Made by a program: the position numbers and the translations under genes. DNA of 64,000 nt. It comes from an uncultured Clostridia bacterium (GTDB lineage Bacteria > Bacillota > Clostridia > Oscillospirales > Ruminococcaceae). The DNA is taken from assembly GCA_947629335.1 (NCBI GenBank), contig CANRDI010000001.1, positions 124,001 through 188,000 on the forward strand, written 5' to 3'. The notes beneath the pieces were generated by a model that did no database searches, was not told the DNA's origin, and saw only the letters and a list, made by a program, of their open reading frames with translations. Each line of letters begins with the position of its first letter. Position 1 is the first letter of the stretch. Below, piece by piece: positions 9,180 through 52,624 of this stretch.

Positions 9180-9254
9180 ACTTTATAATAGGCGGGTTGT
9201 ACGTTTTTTTCGATTTTTACAGCACAAATGCTGTTTGTGATAGGAGGGGTTTTT

Positions 9255-11453
9255 ATGTCTACAAGTATGGATAACGAATATTATAAAAAATGGCGGTTGA
9301 GTTTGTTCAGAATAAATTTCATCATAGCTGTTGCGGTTTTTCTGCTTGAACTGGGGATATTTATTGTTTTATATGTTCAGGATAATATCGACCAGCCGCT
9401 TCCCGAATATCTTACGCGGTTTCTGATAGTTCCGTCCGCGCTTAATTTTTTGGCGGTAGGCGTTGAATTTTTCATTATGAAAAAATGTCCGCATAAAGTC
9501 ACTCTTCAAAATGAAATGGTTTTATATATCCAAATAGTTATATGCATTGTTTCTTCTGCGACGCATTATGTTTTTTCAAGTACCCTTACGGTCTTCTGTA
9601 TTCCGATTTTGTCGTCGGTCGTTTTTTGCAGCAGAAAGCTGACTCAAAACGCATTTTTTCTGAGCGTCGCGGGTATCGTCATAGCTATGGCAAACAGATT
9701 TGCGGGACGTTATAATAAATCGCAGGATAGTTATTTTATTCCGGATTTCTGCTTGGCTTTGGCGATAATATTTTTGGCTCTTCTTATTGCAAGAATAATT
9801 ATGAACCTTATATCCGAACAGAATAAACAGCTTATAGACCTTGCCATAGAGTCAAACGAAGCAAAGCGCCAAGCTCTCGAAGCAAACACGGCGAAAAGCA
9901 AGTTTCTTGCTAATATGTCTCATGAAATAAGGACGCCCATAAACGGCATACTCGGAATGGATTCTATCATTCTCCGCGAAAGCACCGACGCAGAGATAAG
10001 AGAATATGCCATGAATATCCAGAGCGCAGGGAAAAGCCTTATGTCGCTCATAAATGATATTCTTGATTTTTCAAAGATCGAGTCGGGGAAAATGGAGATC
10101 GTGCCGGTTGAATACGAATTGTTTTCGCTTATAAACGACTGCTATAATATGCTCAAAATGCGCGCGCAGGAGAGCAATCTCGAATTGCGCGTAGAAAACG
10201 ACCCGAATTTGCCCGCGCATTTTGTCGGAGATGAAATAAGGATAAGGCAGATAATTACAAATCTCCTTACAAATGCTGTAAAATACACTCAAAAAGGTTA
10301 TGTTATATTGAAATTAAACGGAAGACAAGCTGAGGATGGAAAATATATCCTTATAATTTCCGTAAAGGACACGGGTGTCGGCATTTCAAAGGAAAATCAG
10401 CAGAAGCTCTTCAAGTCATACGAGCGCGTAGATGAAAAGCATAACAGAGGCATTGAGGGAACGGGTCTCGGACTTATAATTACAAAACAACTTGTCGATC
10501 TGATGAACGGAAAGATCATAGTTGAGAGCGAAGAAGGAGTCGGGTCTGAATTTACGGTCGAGATACCCCAGACTGTAAGACACGTCGGCAAAGTAGGAAG
10601 TTTCCATGAAAGGTATCACCATAACGACAACGGATATTCTTATCGTGAAAAATTCCATGCTCCGAACGCTTGTATACTTGTGGTAGATGATGTACAGATG
10701 AACTTGAAGGTGTTTCAAGGTCTTTTAAGGCGTACGCAAATCAATGTAGATACCGCCGACAGCGGGGCAAAATGTCTCGAACTTGTAAAGAAAAAGCGCT
10801 ATGACATAATATTTCTCGATCATATGATGCCGGAAATGGACGGAATAGAAACATTCAGACAAATGAAGCAGATGCCGGATTCGCCAAACTCGAATACACC
10901 CGTAATTATGCTCACGGCAAACGCTATGTCCTCCGCAAAAAGGGAGTATTTCAATATCGGTTTTACCGACTATCTTTCAAAACCGATACACGAAACTGCT
11001 CTTGAAAACCTTATTGAAAGATATTTGTCGCCCGATCTTGTAATAACTGAGTTTAACAGCGAGCCTTCTTTTAAGACAGAAGAAGATCTTTCAGATAATA
11101 AAGCCCTTTTAGAAAAGCTCGGAGCGCATCTTGATATTGTTTCCGGACTGAAATACTGTATGAATGATGAAAAGTTCTATATTGAAATAGTAAGGGATTA
11201 CATAAATTCAGACCGTATTGAAAAGGTCATAAGTTCTTTTAAAGCAAAAGATTACGAAAATTATCGCATAAACGTTCATGCTCTGAAAAGCACGTCGCTT
11301 TCTATCGGCGCAGATCAGCTTTCGGAAAATGCGAAACAGCTTGAAATGGCTGCAAGAAATAACGACTTTGATTTTATCGAGGAGAACACCGAAAATCTGG
11401 TTTCCGAATATAAAGAGCTTATTGAAAATTTAAAAAATGCACTCGGAATGTAG
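9255..11453 (+). CDS. Membrane hybrid sensor histidine kinase with receiver and Hpt domains
   Basis: 732 residues; the ATG at 9255 follows GGAGGGG, so an upstream in-frame ATG at 9228 is not used. Order: about six membrane helices (1-190), a dimerisation/phosphoacceptor domain with SHEIRTP (His223), an ATPase domain with NLLTNAVKYT, DTGVGIS and GTGLGL, a receiver with phosphorylatable Asp522 (FLDHMMPEMD), and a C-terminal Hpt domain with His675 (HALKSTSLSIG). This gives a full internal phosphorelay. No separate response regulator is adjacent, so its output partner is unknown. It ends 17 bp before the sigma-K fragment's homology begins. Confidence 0.92.
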   Translation: MSTSMDNEYYKKWRLSLFRINFIIAVAVFLLELGIFIVLYVQDNIDQPLPEYLTRFLIVPSALNFLAVGVEFFIMKKCPHKVTLQNEMVLYIQIVICIVSSATHYVFSSTLTVFCIPILSSVVFCSRKLTQNAFFLSVAGIVIAMANRFAGRYNKSQDSYFIPDFCLALAIIFLALLIARIIMNLISEQNKQLIDLAIESNEAKRQALEANTAKSKFLANMSHEIRTPINGILGMDSIILRESTDAEIREYAMNIQSAGKSLMSLINDILDFSKIESGKMEIVPVEYELFSLINDCYNMLKMRAQESNLELRVENDPNLPAHFVGDEIRIRQIITNLLTNAVKYTQKGYVILKLNGRQAEDGKYILIISVKDTGVGISKENQQKLFKSYERVDEKHNRGIEGTGLGLIITKQLVDLMNGKIIVESEEGVGSEFTVEIPQTVRHVGKVGSFHERYHHNDNGYSYREKFHAPNACILVVDDVQMNLKVFQGLLRRTQINVDTADSGAKCLELVKKKRYDIIFLDHMMPEMDGIETFRQMKQMPDSPNSNTPVIMLTANAMSSAKREYFNIGFTDYLSKPIHETALENLIERYLSPDLVITEFNSEPSFKTEEDLSDNKALLEKLGAHLDIVSGLKYCMNDEKFYIEIVRDYINSDRIEKVISSFKAKDYENYRINVHALKSTSLSIGADQLSENAKQLEMAARNNDFDFIEENTENLVSEYKELIENLKNALGM

Positions 11454-11494
11454 AAAAAAGTTTCCGAAAGCGTGTAATTGCTAACCAGATAAAA

Positions 11495-11857
11495 ATGCAC
11501 TTCCGTAAGATGAAACACCGCCGCGACGAGGTATTTATAAGCGAACCGATCGACTGTGACGCTGAAGGAAATTCTCTTACGATCGAAGATATTTACAGCA
11601 GCGACGTAAATGTCGAGCAGACCGCCGAACTTAAAATAAACAGTGAAAAACTTTACAGGTTTATTTACGAAGAGCTTGACGACAGGGAACGAGAAATAAT
11701 ATGCAAACGCTATGGCGTAGCGGATAAGAACGGACGTGTCGGAACTCCCATGACGCAGAGGGAGATAGCAAAACAAATGGGAATTTCCCGCTCGTATATT
11801 TCAAGAATCGAGAAGAAAGCTCTCGAAAAGCTGCGCGCGAGATTTGACGAGAAATAG
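11495..11857 (+). CDS. C-terminal half of sporulation sigma factor sigma-K (SpoIIIC-like); N-terminal half absent
   Basis: 120 residues with the end of region 2 (MHFRKMKHRRDEV), then DDREREIICKRYGV and a region 4 helix-turn-helix TQREIAKQMGISRSYISR, which resembles sigma-K more than sigma-E, -F or -G. Homology begins upstream of the ATG, at about 11471 (RVIANQIKMHF matches the sigma-K stretch RCIENEILMHL), but nothing homologous precedes that; the upstream gene is a histidine kinase. There is no ribosome-binding site before the ATG. This is the shape of a sigK gene split by a skin-like element (spoIIIC is the C-terminal half in Bacillus) or of a decayed copy. It may be expressed only after a DNA rearrangement. 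Confidence 0.8.
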   Translation: MHFRKMKHRRDEVFISEPIDCDAEGNSLTIEDIYSSDVNVEQTAELKINSEKLYRFIYEELDDREREIICKRYGVADKNGRVGTPMTQREIAKQMGISRSYISRIEKKALEKLRARFDEK

Positions 11858-11880
11858 TTTATAAAAGAAAAGGGAGTAAA

Positions 11881-13266
11881 ATGGACGCTGAAGAAAGAGA
11901 AAGACTGCAATACAAAAAGATGACGGAAACGCCTATACCGAAACTTATAATAAAGCTCGGTATACCTACGACGCTCAGTATGCTTGTAACGAGCATATAT
12001 AATATGGCAGACACGTTTTTCCTCGGACAACAAGAAAACGGAAACAGCGCGTCCGGAGCGGTAGGAGTAGTTTTCGGACTTATGTCTGTTTTACAGGCGT
12101 TCGGATTTATGTTCGGACAGGGCGCGGGAAGCCTTAGTTCCCGCGCGCTCGGCGCAAAGGATATAGACAGAGCGTCAAAATACAGTTCCACGGGATTTTT
12201 CGCGGCAATGATGTCGGGCGCTTTGATAGCCGTTTTCGGGATTATTTTTATTGAACCGTTTATGAGGCTTCTTGGAAGCACCGACACGATAATGCCGTAT
12301 GCAAAAAGCTATTCTGTATTTATTTTGTTATCCGCGCCGTTTTTGTGCTCAAGCTGCGTTCTAAATAACGTTCTGCGGTTTGAGGGACAGGCGGCTCTTG
12401 CGACAGTCGGGCTTGCTTCGGGCGGATTGCTGAATATTTTCGGAGACTGGCTTTTAATGGAGGTATTTGACCTCGGAGTGACCGGAGCAGGCATTTCTAC
12501 CGCCGTTTCACAGTGCATCAGTTTCGGGATACTTTTAGCGATGTTCTTTTGCGGAAAAACTTCTGCAAGGCTCTCTGTCAGAATGGTTTCAAAGAATATC
12601 GGCGATTGGTTCGACATCTGCAAGACAGGATTTCCGAGCCTTGTCCGTCAGGGACTTACAAGCGTCTCAACAATGATCTTAAATAACAGCGCCGCGGTAT
12701 ATGGCGACGCAGCAATCGCGGCAATGTCCATAGTAAATCGTATCTGCTTTTTTACTTTTGCAACTTCCCTCGGTATCGGACAAGGATTTCAGCCTGTCTG
12801 CGCATTCAATTACGGAGCGAAAAAATACGGCAGAGTTAAAAGTGCGTTTATTTTTACATTTATGATCGGCGAGGTCGTTCTCGGAACGGTCGCTATATTC
12901 GGACTTATATTCTCCGATGGACTTATCGGTATATTCAGAGATGACGCGACTGTCATCAGTATAGGAAAGGTCGCGCTTTCGGCACAGTTTATCGGACAGT
13001 TTTTCCAGCCCTTGGCTGTCTGTACAAATATGATGTTTCAAAGTACGGGAAGATCCGCTGCTGCGACGCTGCTTTCAATGATGAGAAGCGGACTGTTCTT
13101 CATTCCGATATTGCTCATTTTTACGGCAGTCAGCGGACTGACAGGTATCCAGCTTTCACAGGCAATATCAGATGTTCTGACTACAGTCGCGTCGCTTCCG
13201 TTTGCAGTTTCATTTCTCAAAAAGCTCGGAAGACTTCAGGCTGAGGAAAACGCCAAAAAGGCTTAA
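11881..13266 (+). CDS. MATE family multidrug/sodium antiporter
   Basis: 461 residues with about twelve membrane helices in two similar halves. PTTLSMLVTSIYNMADTFFLG in the first half and the second-half QGFQPVCAFNYGA segment are typical of the MATE family, which exports cationic compounds in exchange for protons or sodium. AAAGGGAG is 5 bp before the ATG. The gene overlaps the convergent FAD/Rieske gene by four bases (13263-13266). No regulator is attached. The substrate is not predictable. Confidence 0.88.
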   Translation: MDAEERERLQYKKMTETPIPKLIIKLGIPTTLSMLVTSIYNMADTFFLGQQENGNSASGAVGVVFGLMSVLQAFGFMFGQGAGSLSSRALGAKDIDRASKYSSTGFFAAMMSGALIAVFGIIFIEPFMRLLGSTDTIMPYAKSYSVFILLSAPFLCSSCVLNNVLRFEGQAALATVGLASGGLLNIFGDWLLMEVFDLGVTGAGISTAVSQCISFGILLAMFFCGKTSARLSVRMVSKNIGDWFDICKTGFPSLVRQGLTSVSTMILNNSAAVYGDAAIAAMSIVNRICFFTFATSLGIGQGFQPVCAFNYGAKKYGRVKSAFIFTFMIGEVVLGTVAIFGLIFSDGLIGIFRDDATVISIGKVALSAQFIGQFFQPLAVCTNMMFQSTGRSAAATLLSMMRSGLFFIPILLIFTAVSGLTGIQLSQAISDVLTTVASLPFAVSFLKKLGRLQAEENAKKA

Positions 13267-15667: not shown

Positions 15668-16213
15668 ATGAAAGCAACAGGCATTGTCCGCAGAATAGAC
15701 GATCTCGGACGAGTTGTAATTCCGAAGGAGATTCGCAGAACTATGCGGATACGCGAGGGCGATCCTCTGGAAATTTATACAAGCCCCGACGGAGAGGTAA
15801 TTTTCAAGAAATATTCGCCGGTCGGTGAGATAAGCTCAACCGCTTCACAATATGCAGACGTTTTGTCAAAGGTCGGCGGATGTCCCGCAGTTATATGCGA
15901 CCGCGACCATGTTATAGCCGTTTCGGGAATGAGCAAGAAAGAGATAATTGAGCGCAGAGTTTCCGGCTCTCTCGAAGATCTTATAGAACAGCGCAAGTCA
16001 TATGTTCTTAAAGGAGATAATGACAAAAAGCTGAATCCTATTGAGGGTGTTGACAGATATGCGCTCGCCTGTTCGCCGATATTGGCTTCGGGTGATGTAA
16101 ACGGCGCGGTTATAATGTTAAGTTCTGACAACAGCACAAATACAGCGACCGCAGAACAGTCCGCTTTGGTACAGGCGGCAGCAATGTACTTCGGAAAACA
16201 AATGGAAGAATAA
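15668..16213 (+). CDS. spoVT: Stage V sporulation regulator SpoVT (AbrB N-terminus plus GAF-like domain)
   Basis: 181 residues. The first 50 carry the AbrB-type swapped-hairpin DNA-binding domain (MKATGIVRRIDDLGRVVIPK, then EIRRTMRIREGDPLEI); the rest (about 55-178) is a GAF-like domain, as in SpoVT, which adjusts sigma-G-dependent genes in the forespore. TTGGAGGAAT precedes the ATG. In Bacillus the gene is sigma-G controlled; I did not see a convincing sigma-G promoter at the right spacing here. A terminator follows at once. SpoVT-like proteins also occur in non-sporulating relatives. Confidence 0.92.
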   Translation: MKATGIVRRIDDLGRVVIPKEIRRTMRIREGDPLEIYTSPDGEVIFKKYSPVGEISSTASQYADVLSKVGGCPAVICDRDHVIAVSGMSKKEIIERRVSGSLEDLIEQRKSYVLKGDNDKKLNPIEGVDRYALACSPILASGDVNGAVIMLSSDNSTNTATAEQSALVQAAAMYFGKQMEE

Positions 16214-16334: not shown

Positions 16335-18053
16335 ATGAAAAAGAAAATATTGGCTGTTCTTTTGACCGCTGCTTTTGGACTGAGCGGCTGTGCAAAAACA
16401 GAAGACTACAGCGATAAGACAGTAAATGTTGTCGATATGGGAGGCTCATCAGGTTCGGCTTCTTCGTCAATTCCCGATGTATTGTATTCAAGTTCTTCGG
16501 ATATGATTTCATCAAGTCAAAGTTCTTCAAGCGCAAGCTCCAAGGTACAGAGTTCATCAAGCTCAAGTTCCAAGGAGCAGAGTTCATCAAGTTCAAGCTC
16601 CAAGGAGCAAAGTTCATCAAGCTCAAGTTCCAAAGTGCAGAGTTCATCAAGCTCAAGTTCCAAAGTGCAGAGTTCATCAAGCTCAAGTTCCAAAGTGCAG
16701 AGTTCATCAAGCTCAAGTTCCAAGGTACAGAGTTCATCAAGTTCAAGCTCCAAGGTACAGAGTTCATCAAGTTCAAGTTCCAAGGTACAGAGTTCATCAA
16801 GTTCAAGCTCCAAAGTACAGAGTTCTTCAAGCACAAGTTCCAAAGTACAGAGTTCTTCAAGCACAAGTTCCAAGGCTCCGGTTTCTTCGGATACTGCAAG
16901 TTCTCCTGTTCCAAATACACCGCCCGATGTTCCGAAAAATGACTATGAACCGTTGAATTATGACGAGATAAGAGGCGTTTGGATCTCATATCTGGAACTT
17001 AATTCAATGTCAAATTCTACAGAAAGCGCATTCAGAAAATCTATAAGCGCCGTATTTGACAACTGTGCAGACCTCGGAATAAATACGGTCTATGTACATG
17101 CCCGTTCTCACGGCGACGCTTTCTACAGTTCTTCTCTTTTTCCGAGAACAAAATTTATAGGCGGAAGCTATGACGCGCTGAAGATCGCAGTTGAAGAAGC
17201 GCATAAACGTAACTTGTCGATCCATGCGTGGATAAATCCATTGAGAGCCTGTGCTAAATCCGATGTTTCGAGAGAAAAAGGCTATAAAATAGGCGAATGG
17301 ATAGACGGCGGCACAAGAGCGGTCCTTGTAAACGGATATTATTATCTGAATCCCGCATATGACGAGGTAGTACAGCTTATAGCCGACGGTGTAACGGAGA
17401 TCGTTTCAAACTATGATGTGGACGGAGTACATATAGACGATTATTTCTATCCTACAACAGCAGCGTCCTTTGACGCTGAGGCATTCAAGAACAGCGGATA
17501 TTCTTCTCTTTCGGATTTTCGCTTTGCAAACTGTGATAAATTTGTTTCGTCAATATACAAAGCTATGAAAAATGTAAATCAGAACTTGCTTTTCAGCGTG
17601 AGCTGTCAGGGAAATATAAACAATAACTATGTGTATATGTACGCTGATGTAAAGAAATGGTGTTCGCAAAAGGGTTATCTCGATATTATAATGCCGCAGG
17701 TCTATTTCGGATTTAAACATAAGACCCAGCCTTTTGAAAAATGCTGTAAAGAATGGGACGCGATTGCCCGAAAGGGAAATGTTCCGCTTGTTATAGGCGT
17801 AGCCGCGTCTAATATCGGTCTTGACGCGGGCGGTTATGCCGGCGCAGAAGGCTCGGAGGGAAGAAACGAGTGGATAAACGATAAGGAAATACTTGCAAGA
17901 CAGTATATTTCCGCCCGCGAGCTTGAATGTTATTCGGGAATTTGCCTTTATTCGTATAACAGCCTTTTTAAGCCGCAGAACGCAGTAAAAGCACAGGTCG
18001 AAGAAGAAAAAGAAGCTCTTAAAAACGCATTTGCAAAAAACGGTGATCAATAA
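16335..18053 (+). CDS. Lipoprotein with serine-rich repeat stalk and GHL10 (family 10-like) hydrolase domain
   Basis: 572 residues. A lipoprotein signal peptide ends in LSGC (Cys19). Residues 60-185 are a stalk of about twelve copies of a ten-residue Ser/Lys-Val-Gln unit. From about 210 a TIM-barrel GHL10 domain follows, with EIRGVWISYLELNSM, VYVHARSHGD, EEAHKRNLSIHAWINP and YDVDGVHIDDYFYP. GHL10 proteins act on unknown glycans, probably cell-wall or exopolysaccharides. The ATG of the amidase gene overlaps its stop, so they form an operon. The stalk would hold the domain away from the membrane. The substrate is not known. Confidence 0.87.
   Translation: MKKKILAVLLTAAFGLSGCAKTEDYSDKTVNVVDMGGSSGSASSSIPDVLYSSSSDMISSSQSSSSASSKVQSSSSSSSKEQSSSSSSSKEQSSSSSSSKVQSSSSSSSKVQSSSSSSSKVQSSSSSSSKVQSSSSSSSKVQSSSSSSSKVQSSSSSSSKVQSSSSTSSKVQSSSSTSSKAPVSSDTASSPVPNTPPDVPKNDYEPLNYDEIRGVWISYLELNSMSNSTESAFRKSISAVFDNCADLGINTVYVHARSHGDAFYSSSLFPRTKFIGGSYDALKIAVEEAHKRNLSIHAWINPLRACAKSDVSREKGYKIGEWIDGGTRAVLVNGYYYLNPAYDEVVQLIADGVTEIVSNYDVDGVHIDDYFYPTTAASFDAEAFKNSGYSSLSDFRFANCDKFVSSIYKAMKNVNQNLLFSVSCQGNINNNYVYMYADVKKWCSQKGYLDIIMPQVYFGFKHKTQPFEKCCKEWDAIARKGNVPLVIGVAASNIGLDAGGYAGAEGSEGRNEWINDKEILARQYISARELECYSGICLYSYNSLFKPQNAVKAQVEEEKEALKNAFAKNGDQ
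16517..16876 (+). repeat. 30-bp in-frame tandem repeat coding for a Ser-rich stalk
   Basis: About twelve head-to-tail copies of a 30-bp unit encode Ser-Ser-Ser-Ser-Ser-Ser-Ser-Lys-Val-Gln with minor changes (Lys-Glu-Gln in copies 2-3, a Thr in the last two). Many copies are identical, so recombination or slippage could change copy number without breaking the frame. Confidence 0.92.
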
Positions 18054-42076: not shown

Positions 42077-42799
42077 ATGAGTGAAAATTCTGTGCCGAAG
42101 TATAAGAGGATACTTTTAAAGCTGAGCGGCGAGGCTCTCGCAGGAGGGAAAGAAACGGGACTTGATGTGCCGACGGTTGAAAATATCTGCAAAAGCATAA
42201 AGAAAACGGCTGACGCAGGCGCGCAGATAGGAATTGTCGTGGGCGGCGGAAATTTCTGGCGCGGGAGAAACGCAATAGGCGGCGACCGCGCGCGGGCTGA
42301 CCATATAGGTATGCTTGCGACAACAATGAACGCGCTTTTTGTTGCGGACGTTTTGGAAAGTCTCGGATGCGTCGTAAGAGTTCAGACAGCTATCACTATG
42401 CAGCAGGTAGCAGAGCCGTTTATTATGGGAAAGGCTTTAAGACATCTCGATAAGGGAAGGATCGTCATTTTTGGCTGCGGCACGGGAAACCCCTTCTTTT
42501 CGACCGACAGTGCGGCTTCTTTGAGAGCGGCGGAGCTTAAAGCAGACGTGCTTTTAAAAGCTACAATGGTTGACGGAATTTATGATAAAGACCCGAAAAA
42601 ATATCCCGACGCCAAAAAATTTGATACAATAACTTATCACGATATACTGGTAAATAAGCTTCAGGTCATGGACAGCGCGGCTGCCGCGATATGTACCGAA
42701 AATGATGTTCCGATCATTGTTTTTAATCTTGACAGACCCGACAATATTTATGATGCGGTCATGGGCAAACAGGTAGGAACACTTGTTATAAATCAATAA
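42077..42799 (+). CDS. pyrH: UMP kinase
   Basis: 240 residues. LLKLSGEALAG at the start, GGGNFWRGR and the ADHIGMLATTMNALF run are diagnostic of PyrH, which makes UDP from UMP and is a hexamer regulated by GTP/UTP. Next comes frr, the usual PyrH neighbour in bacteria (usually tsf-pyrH-frr; tsf is not here). The ATG follows GGGG at a spacing of 8. Confidence 0.95.
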   Translation: MSENSVPKYKRILLKLSGEALAGGKETGLDVPTVENICKSIKKTADAGAQIGIVVGGGNFWRGRNAIGGDRARADHIGMLATTMNALFVADVLESLGCVVRVQTAITMQQVAEPFIMGKALRHLDKGRIVIFGCGTGNPFFSTDSAASLRAAELKADVLLKATMVDGIYDKDPKKYPDAKKFDTITYHDILVNKLQVMDSAAAAICTENDVPIIVFNLDRPDNIYDAVMGKQVGTLVINQ

Positions 42800-42815
42800 T
42801 AACAGGAGGATGACT

Positions 42816-43370
42816 ATGAAAGAAGTTATAGCAAACACAAAGGACAGAATGGAAAAATGTATTACTGCTCTATCGAATGAGCTTGCGTCGATAAGGGCAG
42901 GGAGAGCTAATCCTGCTGTTCTTGACAGGATAACGGTAGAGTATTACGGAACGCCTACGCCGATAAATCAAATGGCTTCTATTTCGGTTGCAGAAGCAAG
43001 GATCTTAGTTGTTACTCCATATGATAAATCACAGCTCAAGCCTATTGAAAAGGCAATTCAGGCAAGTGAACTCGGTATAAATCCCACAAATGACGGGTCT
43101 GTTTTGAGAATTGTTTTCCCGCAGCTTACGGAAGAGCGCCGCAAGGAGCTTTGTAAGACAGTAAGCAAGACCTGCGAGGAAAGCAAGGTCGCTGTAAGAA
43201 ACGTTCGCCGCGACGGAATGGATAAGATAAAGGCGAAGAAAAAAGCAAACGAAATAACCGAGGACGACGTAAAAGAAGCGGAGAAGGATATTCAGAAACT
43301 TACCGATAAATATATTGAGAAGATCGACAAGATCGGTGAAGAAAAAGATAAGGAAATTATGTCTATCTGA
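42816..43370 (+). CDS. frr: Ribosome recycling factor
   Basis: 184 residues from the ATG at 42816, which AGGAGG precedes by six bases; the ATG at 42810 overlaps that site. LASIRAGRANPAVLDRITVEYYGT and NDGSVLRIVFPQLTEERR are Frr signatures. It splits post-termination ribosomes with EF-G. Its stop overlaps the uppS start (TGATG). Confidence 0.96.
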   Translation: MKEVIANTKDRMEKCITALSNELASIRAGRANPAVLDRITVEYYGTPTPINQMASISVAEARILVVTPYDKSQLKPIEKAIQASELGINPTNDGSVLRIVFPQLTEERRKELCKTVSKTCEESKVAVRNVRRDGMDKIKAKKKANEITEDDVKEAEKDIQKLTDKYIEKIDKIGEEKDKEIMSI

Positions 43371-44074
43371 TGGAAGAAAATCAAATCCCCGCTCATATCG
43401 GTTTTATTATGGACGGAAACGGCAGGTGGGCGAAAAAACGCGGAATGCCGCGTAATTTCGGTCACAGCAAAGGCGCGGAGGTCTTTAAGAAAACGGTAAA
43501 CTGGTGTAAAGAGCTTGGCGTTAAGTGTGCGACATTCTATGCCTTTTCCACAGAAAACTGGAGGCGTCCCGCAGACGAGATCGAAGGAATAATGAATTTG
43601 CTCAGACGGTATATAAAAGATCTCCGAGCGATGACGAAGGAAAATACTCGAATAATCATTCTCGGAGATATTTCTCAGCTTTCCGAGGATATAAGACTTG
43701 AACTGAGCGATATAATGGAGCGCACAAAAGAAAACGACGGATTTATTGTAGGGATCGCGCTGAATTACGGCGGGCGCGGCGAAATAACGCGTGCGGCAAG
43801 GATACTTGCCGATAAGGCGGCAAGATCTGAGATTGCTCCCGAAGATATTTCCGAAAATTCTATAGAAAAATTATTATATACTGCCGAGATGCCGCCGCTT
43901 GATCTTGTCATTCGTCCGAGCGGTGAACAGCGGCTTTCAAATTTTCTTATCTGGCAGGCGGCTTATGCGGAATTTGTCTTTATGGACGTTCTGTGGCCCG
44001 ACTTTAGCAAAAACGATCTTATATCCGCTATTTCAGAGTTCTCTCAGAGAAGCCGAAGATTTGGCGGAATTTAG
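43370..44074 (+). CDS. uppS: Isoprenyl (undecaprenyl) diphosphate synthase
   Basis: 234 residues. HIGFIMDGNGRWAKKRG (catalytic Asp15), FYAFSTENWRRP and LVIRPSGEQRLSNFLIWQ are cis-prenyltransferase motifs. The family uses SGxxR near the end. The product, undecaprenyl diphosphate, is the lipid carrier for wall polymers. The gene overlaps frr and is 24 bp upstream of cdsA, the classic order. Confidence 0.95.
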   Translation: MEENQIPAHIGFIMDGNGRWAKKRGMPRNFGHSKGAEVFKKTVNWCKELGVKCATFYAFSTENWRRPADEIEGIMNLLRRYIKDLRAMTKENTRIIILGDISQLSEDIRLELSDIMERTKENDGFIVGIALNYGGRGEITRAARILADKAARSEIAPEDISENSIEKLLYTAEMPPLDLVIRPSGEQRLSNFLIWQAAYAEFVFMDVLWPDFSKNDLISAISEFSQRSRRFGGI

Positions 44075-44968: not shown

Positions 44969-45023
44969 TATTGATTATTTATTATTGAAAAAACAAATAT
45001 TTTCGCGGAAAATGGAGTATGAT

Positions 45024-46172
45024 ATGGAAATTGTTTTGCTTGGCTCGACAGGCTCGATAGGAACGCAGACATTAGACGTGTGCCGCAAACATAATATAAA
45101 GGTGAAAGCATTATCCGCAAATTGCAGCGTCGAGCTGCTTGAAAATCAGGCGCGAGAATTTTTGCCTGAATATATTACCGTTTCTGATGAAAAATATTAC
45201 AGTGATATAAAGACGCGTTTAGCAGATACAAGCATAAAAATTCTTTGCAAAGAAGAGTCTGTTTGCGAGCTTGCCGCGCTTAAATGCGACAGAGTAGTAA
45301 ATTCTGTTGTAGGATTTGCGGGACTTTTGCCTACATTAACAGCATTTAAGGCAGGAAACAGCGTTGCTCTTGCAAACAAAGAAACGCTTGTGGCGGGCGG
45401 AGAGATCGTGATGAGATCTCTGAAAGAAAACAAAACGAGCCTTCTGCTTATAGACAGCGAACACTCGGCAATTTTCCAGTGCCTTATGGGAGCAGGAGAA
45501 AATAAGTTCTCGAAAATCATTCTCACCGCGTCGGGCGGACCGTTTTTCGGAAAAACCGCAGATGAACTGAAAAATGTCACAAAGGCACAGGCTCTTAACC
45601 ACCCAAACTGGAAAATGGGCGCAAAAATAACTGTTGACAGCGCGACGATGATGAATAAAGGTCTGGAGTTTATTGAGGCTGTACAATATTTCGGCGCGTC
45701 TCCCGAACAGGTCGAGATAGTTATTCACCGTCAGAGCATAGTTCATTCGGCAGTAGAGTTTGAGGACGGAGCAATAATAGCACAGCTCGGAACAGCGGAT
45801 ATGCGTATTCCGATACAGCTTGCGCTTACTTATCCAAAAAGGCTCGTATGTCCTGCGAAAAAACTTTCGCTCACCGAAGTAGGAACGCTTACATTTGAAA
45901 AGCCCGACGAGGATACGTTTACTTGTCTTAAAGCCGCGAAAAAGGCGATAAAAATGGGCGGAAACGCTCCGTGTATTATAAACTGCGCGAATGAGGCGGC
46001 GGTTTCGCTGTTTCTGAATGACAGGATAAGATTTTCCGACATAGGAGAAGCTGTAAATAAAGCGCTTTCCGATGTTGAATATAAGAAAGATCCGTCGCTT
46101 GAGGATATTTTAAATACCAAAATTGCTGCGGAAAATTATGTGTATGAAATGTTTAAACAGGGGGAAATATGA
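45024..46172 (+). CDS. dxr: 1-deoxy-D-xylulose 5-phosphate reductoisomerase
   Basis: 382 residues from the ATG at 45024, after TGGAG; the longer reading at 44985 has no site. NADPH-binding LLGSTGSIGTQTL, the SVVGFAGL and ANKETLVAGG blocks, LLIDSEHSAIFQCL and KMGAKITVDSATMMNKGLE are diagnostic. It is the second step of the MEP isoprenoid path; ispG from the same path is two genes on. It overlaps rseP by four bases. Confidence 0.95.
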   Translation: MEIVLLGSTGSIGTQTLDVCRKHNIKVKALSANCSVELLENQAREFLPEYITVSDEKYYSDIKTRLADTSIKILCKEESVCELAALKCDRVVNSVVGFAGLLPTLTAFKAGNSVALANKETLVAGGEIVMRSLKENKTSLLLIDSEHSAIFQCLMGAGENKFSKIILTASGGPFFGKTADELKNVTKAQALNHPNWKMGAKITVDSATMMNKGLEFIEAVQYFGASPEQVEIVIHRQSIVHSAVEFEDGAIIAQLGTADMRIPIQLALTYPKRLVCPAKKLSLTEVGTLTFEKPDEDTFTCLKAAKKAIKMGGNAPCIINCANEAAVSLFLNDRIRFSDIGEAVNKALSDVEYKKDPSLEDILNTKIAAENYVYEMFKQGEI

Positions 46173-48283: not shown

Positions 48284-51200
48284 ATGGCAAAGCTTTTGGA
48301 ACTTGTCGATAATGTAAAACTGCCCGAAAATATAAGCAGTGGAACTGTGCTTAAAATTGCCTGCAACAAGGAGAAAACAGATTTAAAGATAAACCTTGCT
48401 CTTGACGCGCTTGTTCCGATGTCAGAGCTTATTTCCGCGTCTGAAATTATTTCCTCGGCAATAAATGCGGAGGTTATGATCTATCCGAAATATCATGAAA
48501 GTATGTTTACAGTTGATTATATATATGAAATAATTGAGCTTTTAAAGCGGAAAATGATCTCCGTAAACGGATATTTCGACAATGCGGAGATAAATGACGA
48601 CGGTTCTACCTATGAGATAACGCTTAAAAACGGCGGAAAAAAAGTGCTTATGGGGCTTGGGATAGAAAATAAGATACAGAATTATATCCGCGGTTTTTTT
48701 GATAAGCAGATAAAGGTCGTTTTGTCGTCGGAAAACGAACTTGACGTAGACGAGTATATAAAACAAGAAAACAGCGCCCCTACAGAACAAATACCTATAG
48801 TAGCCGTAAAGGAAAAGCAGAAAGAAAAAAAAGGTTTTAGAAGCGGTTATTCAAGAAAACCTCAGTTTTTAGAAGAACCGCTCGAAATAGAGCTTCCGTT
48901 TAAACACGAAAAATTTGAAAGTAAAGCAAAACTTTTATACGGAAAAGAAAATTTCAGTTTTCCCGATAAAATGTCCGAAAATTTTTCCGAGGCGGACGAA
49001 ACTACTTTGTGGGGAACGATTTTCAAAATATCCGATGAAAAAACCTCTCGTGACGGACAAACCTTTATTTTTTCCGTCTGCTTTTCGGATAAAACTTCTT
49101 CGGCAATTTTAAAAATTGTCACGGGTATCGAAAATAAGGATATTATCACATCAAATCTTTCTGTCGGGAAAACTATCATTTCCACGGGAAAATTCGAGCA
49201 GGATAATTTTACGCATAAAATAAATTTTCGCCCAAATTCAATAGCGCTTATTAAGCCTCTCGGCAGAAAAGACAGCGCCGAGCAAAAGCGCGTTGAGCTT
49301 CATATGCACACAAAAATGTCCGATATGGACGCGGTTTCTTCCGCAGAAGAGCTGATAAAACAGGCAAACGAGTGGGGACATCCCGCTGTGGCAATAACTG
49401 ACCACGGAAATCTCCAGAGCTATCCTGAGGCAATGAATACCGTTGAGGCATTAAATTCAAAAGGCTCTGACATTAAAATGATCTACGGTATAGAAGCATA
49501 TTTCGTAAATGACGGAGAAGAGCTTGTAAAAGGCGTAGATAACTATTCGGCGGATGACGAGATAGTTGTATTTGATATTGAAACAACGGGTCTTTCCTCA
49601 AAAAACGACAGAATGACCGAGATAGGAGCTGTAAAACTTAAAAACCGCGAAATAGTTGAAGAATTTCAGACGTTTGTCGACCCTGAAATGTCAATTTCCG
49701 CGCCCATAACCGAGCTTACGGGAATAACCGACGCAATGGTCGAAAACGCTCCAAAAGAAAAAGACGCGCTCGAAGCATTTATGAAATTTGCAGGAAAGAG
49801 CGTACTTGTCGCGCATAACGCGCTTTTTGATACCTCGTTCATAAAAGAAGCGGCGGAGAGAAACGGCGTTGACTACAAATTTGACTTTATTGATACAATT
49901 CCGCTTTGTAAAGCAGCATTGCCTAACTTAAAAAAATATAAGCTCGATATTGTAGCAAAAGAATATAAGCTCGGCGATTTTAATCATCATCGTGCCATAG
50001 ACGACGCGAAAATGCTATGTCAGATATTTTTGAATTTGATAAAAGATGCCGAGAAGAACGGAAAACTTGAGAAGCTCGGCGATTTCAACAGGCTTTTCTC
50101 GACCGTAGATGTAAAAAAGCTCCCGACATATCATATGGTTATTCTTGTTAAAAACAAGATAGGTCTGAAAAATCTCTATAAGCTCGTTTCATATTCAAAC
50201 CTTAAATATTTCCATAAAAAGCCGAGAATACCGCTTTCAGAGCTTCAAAAACACCGCGAGGGACTTATTATAGGTTCTGCCTGCGAAGCAGGCGAGCTTT
50301 TCCGTGCAATTCTTGAAAACAAGCCGGAAGAAGAGATAGAAAAAATAGCTGCTGTATATGATTATTATGAGATACAGCCTATCTGCAACAACAGGTTCCT
50401 TGTCCGTGAGGGCAAAGTAAATGATGACGAGGAGCTTAAAAACCTGAACCGCAGAATTGTCGAGCTTGCACAAAAGCACGGAAAGCTTTGTGTGGCAACT
50501 TGCGACGTGCATTTCAAGGATAAAGAGGACGGAATATTCCGAAAAATACTTCAGGCAGGTCAAGGGTATAAGGACGCGGAAAATCAGGCTGACCTTTATT
50601 TCAGAACGACTGATGAAATGCTTAGAGAATTTGATTATCTCGGAGAGGAAAAGGCGTTTGAAGTCGTTGTTACAAATACAAATAAGATCGCCGATATGAT
50701 TGAAAGCGACATCAGACCTATCCCGAAGGGAACTTATACCCCGTCTATCGAAGGCGCAGAACAGGAGCTTCAAGATCTGTGCTGGAGCAGGGCAAACGCT
50801 TGGTTTAAAGAAGACGGAAAGGAACTTCCGGAGATAGTTGAAAATCGACTTAAACGAGAGCTTGAATCCATTATTAAATACGGATTTTCGGTTCTTTATA
50901 TGATAGCACAGAAGCTCGTAAAATACTCGGAGGACAACGGCTATCTTGTAGGTTCGAGAGGATCGGTCGGCTCATCGTTTGTTGCGATAATGGCGGGAAT
51001 TTCGGAGGTAAATCCGCTTGCGCCGCATTATCGCTGTCCGAAATGCCGTCATTCCGAGTTTATTACAGACGGCTCGGTCGGGTCGGGATTTGATTTGCCG
51101 CCTAAAAACTGTCCGAATTGCGGAATAGATATGATACGCGACGGACATGACATTCCTTTTGAAACATTTCTCGGTTTTAAGGGCGATAAAGCTCCCGATA

Positions 51201-52624
51201 TAGACCTTAATTTCTCAGGAGAAGTTCAGGGAAAGGTACATAGATATACCGAAGAACTTTTCGGTAAAGACCACGTTTTCAAAGCGGGAACTATCTCCGC
51301 CGTACAGGATAAAACCGCATACGGTTTTGTAAAGAAATACGCCGAAGAACGGGGATTAGATATAAACGACGCCGAGGTAGAAAGACTTGCGGTCGGCTGT
51401 ACCGGCGTAAAGAGAACGACTTCGCAGCACCCCGGAGGAATGGTCGTTGTACCCAATGATTACGAGGTTTACGACTTTACTCCCGTACAACACCCTGCTG
51501 ACAAGACCGAAAGCGATATGATAACGACGCATTTCGACTTCCACGCGCTTCACGATACGATTTTAAAGCTTGACGAGCTTGGACATGATGTGCCGACGCT
51601 TTATAAACATCTTGAAGATATGACGGGATTGAAGATAGCCGACGTTCCGACAACCGACCCCGATGTATACAAACTTTTTGTGTCTACCGAACCGCTTAAA
51701 CTTGTTGATGAAATAGGCGTGAGCTGCGGAACATTGGGCATTCCCGAATTTGGAACGGGTTTTGCTATGCAGATGCTTCAAGACGCCCAGCCGAAAAACT
51801 TTTCGGATTTATTGCAGATTTCGGGTCTTTCACATGGAACGGACGTATGGCTCGGAAACGCGCAAGATCTTATCAAAAACGGTACTTGTACTATTTCAAA
51901 CGTAATCGGAACGCGCGACAGCATTATGACTTATCTTATGCATAAAGGGCTTGAACCGTCAATGGCGTTTAATATTATGGAGATAACCCGAAAGGGAAAA
52001 GCTCAAAGCAAGTTTGACGATAAGATTTACAAAGCGTTTGCGGATAATAATGTCCCCGAATGGTATGTGGAGAGCTGTAAAAAGATAAAATATATGTTCC
52101 CGAAAGCTCATGCGGCGGCTTATGTGACCGCGGCGGTTAAACTCGGCTGGTTCAAGATACATAAACCCGCAGAGTTCTATGCTGCTACGCTTACGAAGCA
52201 CACAAACAATCTTGAACTCGAAACAATTCTCAAAGGAAAGAGTTCGGTAAAACAGAGAATACAGGAAATAAAATCTCTCCCAAAACCCTCGGCAAAAGAA
52301 GAAGATACTCTCGACGCGCTTATGCTCGTTTTAGAGATGCTTTCGAGGGGAATAGAGGTACTTCCTGTTGACGCAAGGAAATCAAATGCATTGACATACT
52401 CTATCGAGGACGGAAAGCTGAGAATGCCGTTTCTGGCAGTGGCAGGCTGCGGAGAAAACGCGGCAATAAAGCTTCGTGAAACAATTGATAAAGACGAGAA
52501 TGCCTGCATAGATGATATTCAGGCAACGAGCGGCGTAAACTCGACAGTTATTGAGAAGCTCAAAGATATGGGCGCATTCAACGGTTTTCAACAGTCTGCT
52601 CAGTTTACACTTTTTGATATGTAA
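48284..52624 (+). CDS. polC: DNA polymerase III alpha subunit, PolC type
   Basis: 1446 residues, the normal PolC length. An N-terminal region and an OB domain (LWGTIFKISDEKTSRDGQTF) are followed by a PHP domain (ELHMHTKMSDMDAV, AITDHGN), with an inserted proofreading exonuclease (VVFDIETTGLSS, HNALFDTSF, HHRAIDDAKML). The polymerase core includes GSRGSVGSSF and PDIDLNFSG (catalytic aspartates), and the zinc-finger cysteines CPKCRHSEF and CPNCGI lie before it. PolC is the main replicative polymerase of Firmicutes. The gene has no promoter of its own that I can see. Confidence 0.97.
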   Translation: MAKLLELVDNVKLPENISSGTVLKIACNKEKTDLKINLALDALVPMSELISASEIISSAINAEVMIYPKYHESMFTVDYIYEIIELLKRKMISVNGYFDNAEINDDGSTYEITLKNGGKKVLMGLGIENKIQNYIRGFFDKQIKVVLSSENELDVDEYIKQENSAPTEQIPIVAVKEKQKEKKGFRSGYSRKPQFLEEPLEIELPFKHEKFESKAKLLYGKENFSFPDKMSENFSEADETTLWGTIFKISDEKTSRDGQTFIFSVCFSDKTSSAILKIVTGIENKDIITSNLSVGKTIISTGKFEQDNFTHKINFRPNSIALIKPLGRKDSAEQKRVELHMHTKMSDMDAVSSAEELIKQANEWGHPAVAITDHGNLQSYPEAMNTVEALNSKGSDIKMIYGIEAYFVNDGEELVKGVDNYSADDEIVVFDIETTGLSSKNDRMTEIGAVKLKNREIVEEFQTFVDPEMSISAPITELTGITDAMVENAPKEKDALEAFMKFAGKSVLVAHNALFDTSFIKEAAERNGVDYKFDFIDTIPLCKAALPNLKKYKLDIVAKEYKLGDFNHHRAIDDAKMLCQIFLNLIKDAEKNGKLEKLGDFNRLFSTVDVKKLPTYHMVILVKNKIGLKNLYKLVSYSNLKYFHKKPRIPLSELQKHREGLIIGSACEAGELFRAILENKPEEEIEKIAAVYDYYEIQPICNNRFLVREGKVNDDEELKNLNRRIVELAQKHGKLCVATCDVHFKDKEDGIFRKILQAGQGYKDAENQADLYFRTTDEMLREFDYLGEEKAFEVVVTNTNKIADMIESDIRPIPKGTYTPSIEGAEQELQDLCWSRANAWFKEDGKELPEIVENRLKRELESIIKYGFSVLYMIAQKLVKYSEDNGYLVGSRGSVGSSFVAIMAGISEVNPLAPHYRCPKCRHSEFITDGSVGSGFDLPPKNCPNCGIDMIRDGHDIPFETFLGFKGDKAPDIDLNFSGEVQGKVHRYTEELFGKDHVFKAGTISAVQDKTAYGFVKKYAEERGLDINDAEVERLAVGCTGVKRTTSQHPGGMVVVPNDYEVYDFTPVQHPADKTESDMITTHFDFHALHDTILKLDELGHDVPTLYKHLEDMTGLKIADVPTTDPDVYKLFVSTEPLKLVDEIGVSCGTLGIPEFGTGFAMQMLQDAQPKNFSDLLQISGLSHGTDVWLGNAQDLIKNGTCTISNVIGTRDSIMTYLMHKGLEPSMAFNIMEITRKGKAQSKFDDKIYKAFADNNVPEWYVESCKKIKYMFPKAHAAAYVTAAVKLGWFKIHKPAEFYAATLTKHTNNLELETILKGKSSVKQRIQEIKSLPKPSAKEEDTLDALMLVLEMLSRGIEVLPVDARKSNALTYSIEDGKLRMPFLAVAGCGENAAIKLRETIDKDENACIDDIQATSGVNSTVIEKLKDMGAFNGFQQSAQFTLFDM

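Follow-up and report, generated by a model that had tools for sequence, protein, structure and literature searches.

The sigma-K gene (sigK) of this genome is split into two halves that stand in reversed order, the C-terminal half first and the N-terminal half some 59 kb later. It is very likely, judging from the sequence, that the halves are joined in the mother cell by a large serine recombinase, by way of a 59-kb circle and a 2.4-Mb remainder. In the skin element of Bacillus subtilis, the order is spoIVCB - spoIVCA ... spoIIIC, and the smaller circle is the dispensable insert, so that sigK stays on the chromosome.

The C-terminal half, of the spoIIIC type and with region 4, lies in the window, the stretch of 64,000 nucleotides that was analysed (C1:124001-188000 of its own genome, which comprises 2.48 Mb in 50 contigs). 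It occupies 11485..11857 on the + strand, or 11483-11857 when counted from a shared AA, with its stop codon at 11855-11857. The identification of this frame as the C-terminal half of sigma-K, made in the original prediction, was confirmed by profile searches, in which the frame at 11456-11857 scored 118.5 bits with TIGR02846 (profile positions 106-226 of 227) and only 81.7 bits with the sigma-E model, and Pfam region 4 was intact at 64.7 bits. Homology had been placed as beginning abruptly at about 11471 and ending with an intact region 4; the latter holds, but the true start of the half is the shared AA at 11483-11484, and the RVIA stretch at 11471 is part of a recombinase half-site. The first ATG of the frame lies at 11495, and no Shine-Dalgarno sequence or other ribosome site was seen upstream of it on reading the sequence, as had been stated. 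Also as described, the half sits behind a histidine kinase, a hybrid enzyme (9228..11453, +) with HisKA, HATPase, receiver and Hpt domains by Pfam, which ends at 11453, upstream of the P half-site described below. The right neighbour is a MATE transporter (11881..13266, +), which also stands to the right of the intact sigK of the relative G023.

The partner of this half lies beyond the window. A profile search of the genome matched an N-terminal half at C1:194209-194565 (+, profile positions 2-114); this spoIVCB-type gene (C1:194206-194555, +) encodes a hydrophobic leader and then the first half of sigma-K, its frame ending after RCIDNAIAH. The AA cores of the two halves are 59,071 bp apart on the same strand, with the C-half first. 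The genes bioB, bioY-like (named by eye) and birA follow the N-half, and a gene for a large serine recombinase of 539 aa (C1:197286-198905) comes after them on the opposite strand, 2.7 kb past the N-half. The search that had been proposed for an spoIVCB-like half with a large serine recombinase nearby was therefore successful on both counts. The same profile search of the 2.48-Mb genome found neither a second C-half nor an intact sigK, the possibility that the original prediction had wanted checked; the lone full-length match to the sigK profile, at C1:322205-322873, scores best as sigE (358 bits, against 262.9 bits for sigK), and a second sigma gene adjoins this sigE, at the position that sigG usually occupies. 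As in a skin element, sigK is broken into N- and C-halves that join in frame, a large serine recombinase is linked to the split gene, and attL/attR-type sites, recognized by sequence, lie at both junctions.

The broken end of the N-half continues as GATAA-TGCAATNRCACNNNTNCGGAAA, and TTTCCGNANGTGTGTAATTGC-TAA stands before the C-half, both being rough consensuses drawn by eye from the aligned broken ends of relatives. In the window, the P half of the predicted attachment site (attR-type; 11459..11482, +) abuts the C-half, and the shared AA of the TAA core (11483..11484, +), which forms the first two bases of the Asn codon in CIDNQIK, is the presumed crossover point. P agrees with the reverse complement of P', the half-site beside the N-half, at 16 of 24 bases here, a match reached by 0 of 20,000 shuffles; the agreement is 14-21 of 24 bases in each of 10 genomes, and among 20,000 shuffles for each genome it was reached by none in eight genomes, by 2 in G006 and by 22 in G034. 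Among genomes, half-site identity amounts to 75% (13 attL) and 79% (10 attR), as against 36-37% for the next bases outward. The half-site pattern, derived from these very sites, occurs exactly twice in the 2.48-Mb genome, at C1:135461 (+) and C1:194558 (-), which are the two broken ends (a reversed control gave 0 forward matches and 1 reverse match). The half-sites are predicted from this make-up to be the attL and attR of a serine integrase, imperfectly inverted and in direct orientation. A repeat shared by the two junctions had also been expected; there is no long direct repeat, and the junctions have in common only the TAA core within conserved inverted half-sites. Joining the halves at the AA gives attB, that is, the whole sigK (CIDNQIKMHFRK), and P together with P' would give attP. 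In all 10 genomes that have both halves the joined sigma-K frame stays open, and fused relatives encode CIDNQIKM at the junction.

The recombinase has the Resolvase, Recombinase and Zn-ribbon domains and the N-terminal serine of large serine recombinases. Its S10, presumably the catalytic serine to judge from relatives, is invariant in the 12 aligned of 13 orthologues, whose frames of 528-568 aa are all full length. The regions upstream of the recombinase gene and of the N-half were aligned too, but no conserved promoter class is claimed from them. On the far side of the recombinase and divergent from it lies an ORF of about 60 residues (61 aa; C1:198984-199166, or L057:10984-11166; +), whose family is present in 13 of 13 split genomes, with scores of at least 75 bits in 12 of them and 51 bits in G029, on other contigs. 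Weaker homologues occur in five genomes without this recombinase (G008, G015, G016, G019 and G027), and family members lie near sigK pieces in G015 and G016. Scans of three of the ten members gave no Pfam or PHROGs match at E 0.001, and a single-sequence structure model comprises two helices at a weak mean pLDDT of 67.9. Linkage and conservation are what make this small ORF beside the recombinase a candidate directionality factor.

A phage source of the attachment system was considered and set aside. One attP-like pattern had 0 matches in the viral collection, and the relatives of the recombinase there, among the best 80 of 137, show 35-44% identity over most of the protein, while two reach 49-51% over part of it.

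Both halves are found on one contig in six genomes. G064 and G020 have the classic order, in which the N-half is followed by the recombinase and an insert (6.7 kb and 39 kb, respectively) and then by the C-half. The genome of the window (G000) and G005, G007 and G010 have the reverse order, C-half, 47-59 kb, N-half, all on one strand. The arc from C-half to N-half spans 59,071 bp here (+), from 11485 to 64000 in the window and on to C1:194554 (window-equivalent 70554). It carries the core genes pyrH (42077..42799, +), frr (42810..43370, +), uppS (43370..44074, +), dxr (44985..46172, +) and polC (48284..52624, +), along with a spoVT-like gene (15668..16213, +) that scores 209.8 bits, below the model cut-off of 235.9. 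Of 55 ORFs called mechanically in this arc, 43, 42 and 42 recur in the arcs of G005, G007 and G010, all of them collinear, and most of the non-recurring ones lie in one block at C1:146-154 kb. The 47-59 kb between C-half and N-half are ordinary chromosome. Another gene of the window, at 16335-18053, encodes a protein that has, near the N-terminus, a long tract of serine-rich repeats (SSSSSSKVQ units).

The outer flanks were compared in eight genomes. Here a sensor kinase gene precedes the N-half and an argF-like gene (named by eye) follows the recombinase; in G011, G028, G035 and G062 the distance between these two genes is 0.1-2.1 kb, with no sigK match between them. Among the others, G006 has the split too, G023 is arranged differently, and nothing matched in G008 and G033. 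Since kinase and argF-like gene adjoin in G011, G028, G035 and G062, both sides of the N-half insertion are native chromosome. The fused sigK of G023 has the left neighbours of the N-half and the right neighbours of the C-half.

It is against this gene order that an ordinary skin-type element has to be weighed, in which the P-side DNA would be a dispensable insert, excised so that sigK remains on the chromosome, and faulty assembly would account for the C..N order. The same recombinase family does make the classic N-insert-C loci of G064 and G020, yet four assemblies show C..N on single contigs, with gene order continuous on four sides and arcs that are collinear, and the four genomes just named supply native flanks for both sides of the insertion, which makes this explanation very unlikely. 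A skin element consists of N-half, dispensable insert and C-half, and what is found here is C-half, 59 kb with core genes, and N-half. The original reading of a split sigK stands as regards the spoIVCB-type half and the recombinase near it, but no skin-like element lies between the halves. A skin-like element holding the histidine kinase, as had been envisaged, is rejected on the half order and the native flanks; with the halves reversed, the kinase falls outside the 59-kb arc, on the 2.4-Mb side.

The split was traced across 43 genomes of the genus (37 + 6; matches in the first set were listed to about E = 1e-22, and N-halves scored 1e-37 to 1e-26). Among the matches listed, an N-half ending at this point occurs in 13 of the 43 (G000, G002, G003, G005, G006, G007, G010, G013, G020, G029, G031, G034 and G064), and the same 13 hold a full-length recombinase orthologue (54-100% identity); the next full-length recombinase match is at 38% (G065), and a 57% fragment occurs in G063. 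Ten of these 13 yielded a C-half, and none was present in G002, G003 or G031 among the matches listed (to about E = 1e-22). Fused sigK genes occur in 23 of the 30 other genomes (19 junctions, G023, and G018, G027 and G030, in which the gene is cut at a contig end). The remaining seven (G004, G008, G019, G022, G024, G032 and G036) showed no N-half and no fused gene among the matches listed. The fused sigma-K of G023 falls below the curated sigK cut-offs (221 versus 298.65 bits and 236.8 versus 252 bits) and far above its sigE score. In the tree, the joined proteins are scattered among several places of the fused sigma-K proteins, so splitting probably arose more than once. G023 takes a basal position in one tree (support 72) and a nested one in another (0.88), and its intact sigK may accordingly be either ancestral or re-fused. 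All of the 12 closest named relatives are metagenome assemblies, and six of them bear the label Lapin (rabbit).

Further sigK loci were noted beside recombinase genes. On G063 C122 (L151:5805-6233), a piece of the same recombinase family (57% over residues 143-285), probably the remnant of an old element, lies about 190 bp past an intact sigK. In an uncultured Roseburia sp. (L201:3238-5294), a 39%-identical recombinase directly adjoins a sigK C-half, which suggests that sigK was split independently there, the recombinase lying at the C side.

SigO-RsoA of B. subtilis is a two-subunit sigma factor, and the halves of sigK could in principle be translated separately to form another, each being an open frame and the C-half containing region 4. 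We find this hardly credible, as no ribosome site was seen before the C-half here, the conserved half-sites and the recombinase linkage would be left unexplained, and a fused gene exists in 23 genomes of the genus.

Both sigK halves, which we read as parts of one gene awaiting joining, are under purifying selection: in pairs with dS < 1, dN/dS is 0.025-0.108 for the N-half (pairs with pS below 0.72) and 0.022-0.040 for the C-half. Decay, named as the alternative in the original prediction, would make both halves relics of a lost sigK. It could account for an N-half that ends in a few non-sigK codons and a stop, for a C-half without a start, for C-halves in genomes that keep an intact sigK (G012, G015 and G016), and for those in G004 and G032, where neither an N-half nor a fused gene was found among the matches listed. 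With dN/dS at 0.02-0.11 (pairs with dS < 1), the joined frame open in all 10 genomes, the non-coding half-sites conserved and the recombinase frames full length in 13 of 13 split genomes, decay is extremely unlikely. SpoIVA (706 bits) and sigE are present in the genome, and together with the spoVT-like gene they agree with a working sporulation pathway.

Elsewhere in the genus, sigK C-halves form arrays, with five on G016 C13 (L068-L071, L155) and three on G032 C7 (L074-L075), each behind a P-type half-site and 5-33 kb apart, with varied cargo between them. The copies differ from one another, with dS mostly 0.4-1.3 and dN 0.004-0.04, and on these values they look selected rather than decayed. 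In four of the five G016 C13 copies, similarity to sigK extends about 45 bases beyond the stop. The arrays resemble accreted islands, each with a replacement 3' end of sigK.

Compared with the skin element of B. subtilis, sigK is cut here in the same protein stretch, the N-half has the promoter and the C-half lacks a start, and a large serine recombinase is encoded convergently past the N-half. The locus differs in having no dispensable element and reversed halves, and in that the predicted sigK product is a 59-kb circle with core genes, the recombinase staying on the rest. The relatives G064 and G020 share with it the attachment core, the half-sites, the recombinase clade and the small ORF family, but have the classic N-insert-C order, with inserts of 6.7 kb and 39 kb. 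The insert of G064 (C4, L150:413-7453) is a non-phage mini-skin; its sole large cargo protein, of 1332 residues, combines a cellulase (GH5) domain with carbohydrate-binding modules.

The skinCd element of Clostridioides difficile, with the recombinase CD1231 and the directionality factor CD1234, is a prophage-like insert whose excised circle carries attP (PMC5025042). It has attL/attR half-sites with inverted repeats and a large serine recombinase (PMC5025042), as found here; a directionality factor is known there, and here a small conserved ORF lies near the recombinase. In the present locus, attP would form on the main chromosome instead. An E. coli assay showed the skinCd recombinase to invert DNA between opposed sites as well (PMC5025042), so other topologies are open to enzymes of this kind. 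The gin element in gerE of Bacillus cereus ATCC10987, with GirC and GirX, is a non-prophage case of a sporulation gene made by a recombinase, but gin is still an insert between two gene parts that is excised (PMC5595907). The cases listed in the literature searched are skin, skinCd, gin in gerE, yin in yabG, SP-beta in spsM, and prophages or insertions in sigK, and the gene-restoring sporulation rearrangements described there remove an insert between gene parts (PMC5595907, PMC5025042, PMC8987985, PMC3533761). A reversed order of halves with core genes between them was not found described in the searchable literature, which excludes most subscription journals. The inside-out sigK works like skin but without the feature that makes skin an intervening element.

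In the proposed mechanism, the recombinase encoded 2.7 kb past the N-half would catalyse the joining of attL with attR, with crossover at the shared AA, the protein of about 60 residues may provide directionality, and the event would be restricted to the sporulating mother cell. With attL and attR in direct orientation, recombination would yield two circles, of which the 59-kb circle would carry the whole sigK, its upstream region and the core genes, and the 2.4-Mb circle, if there is a single circular chromosome, would end up with attP, the recombinase and the histidine kinase of the window. The mother cell could then express sigK from the 59-kb circle, and the chromosome of the forespore would have to stay uncut. 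A growing cell would probably not survive the recombination, because the 59 kb holds polC, frr, uppS and dxr, and the event would therefore need to be confined to a cell without descendants.

It is likely that skin has been turned inside out in this lineage: the intervening element is gone, sigK would be completed on a 59-kb circle that also bears polC and other core genes, and simple excision could never heal the split in the germ line. If this is true, the chromosome itself is split and the finished gene resides on the smaller circle, an arrangement tolerable only in a dying cell, and the inside-out sigK would put the confinement of such recombination to the mother cell to a strict test. The arrangement also suggests a reason for keeping the system, in that excision in a growing cell would part the core genes from the chromosome, and loss of the interruption should therefore be counter-selected. 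Since fused, classic and inside-out states all occur in the genus, the transitions between them are open to study.
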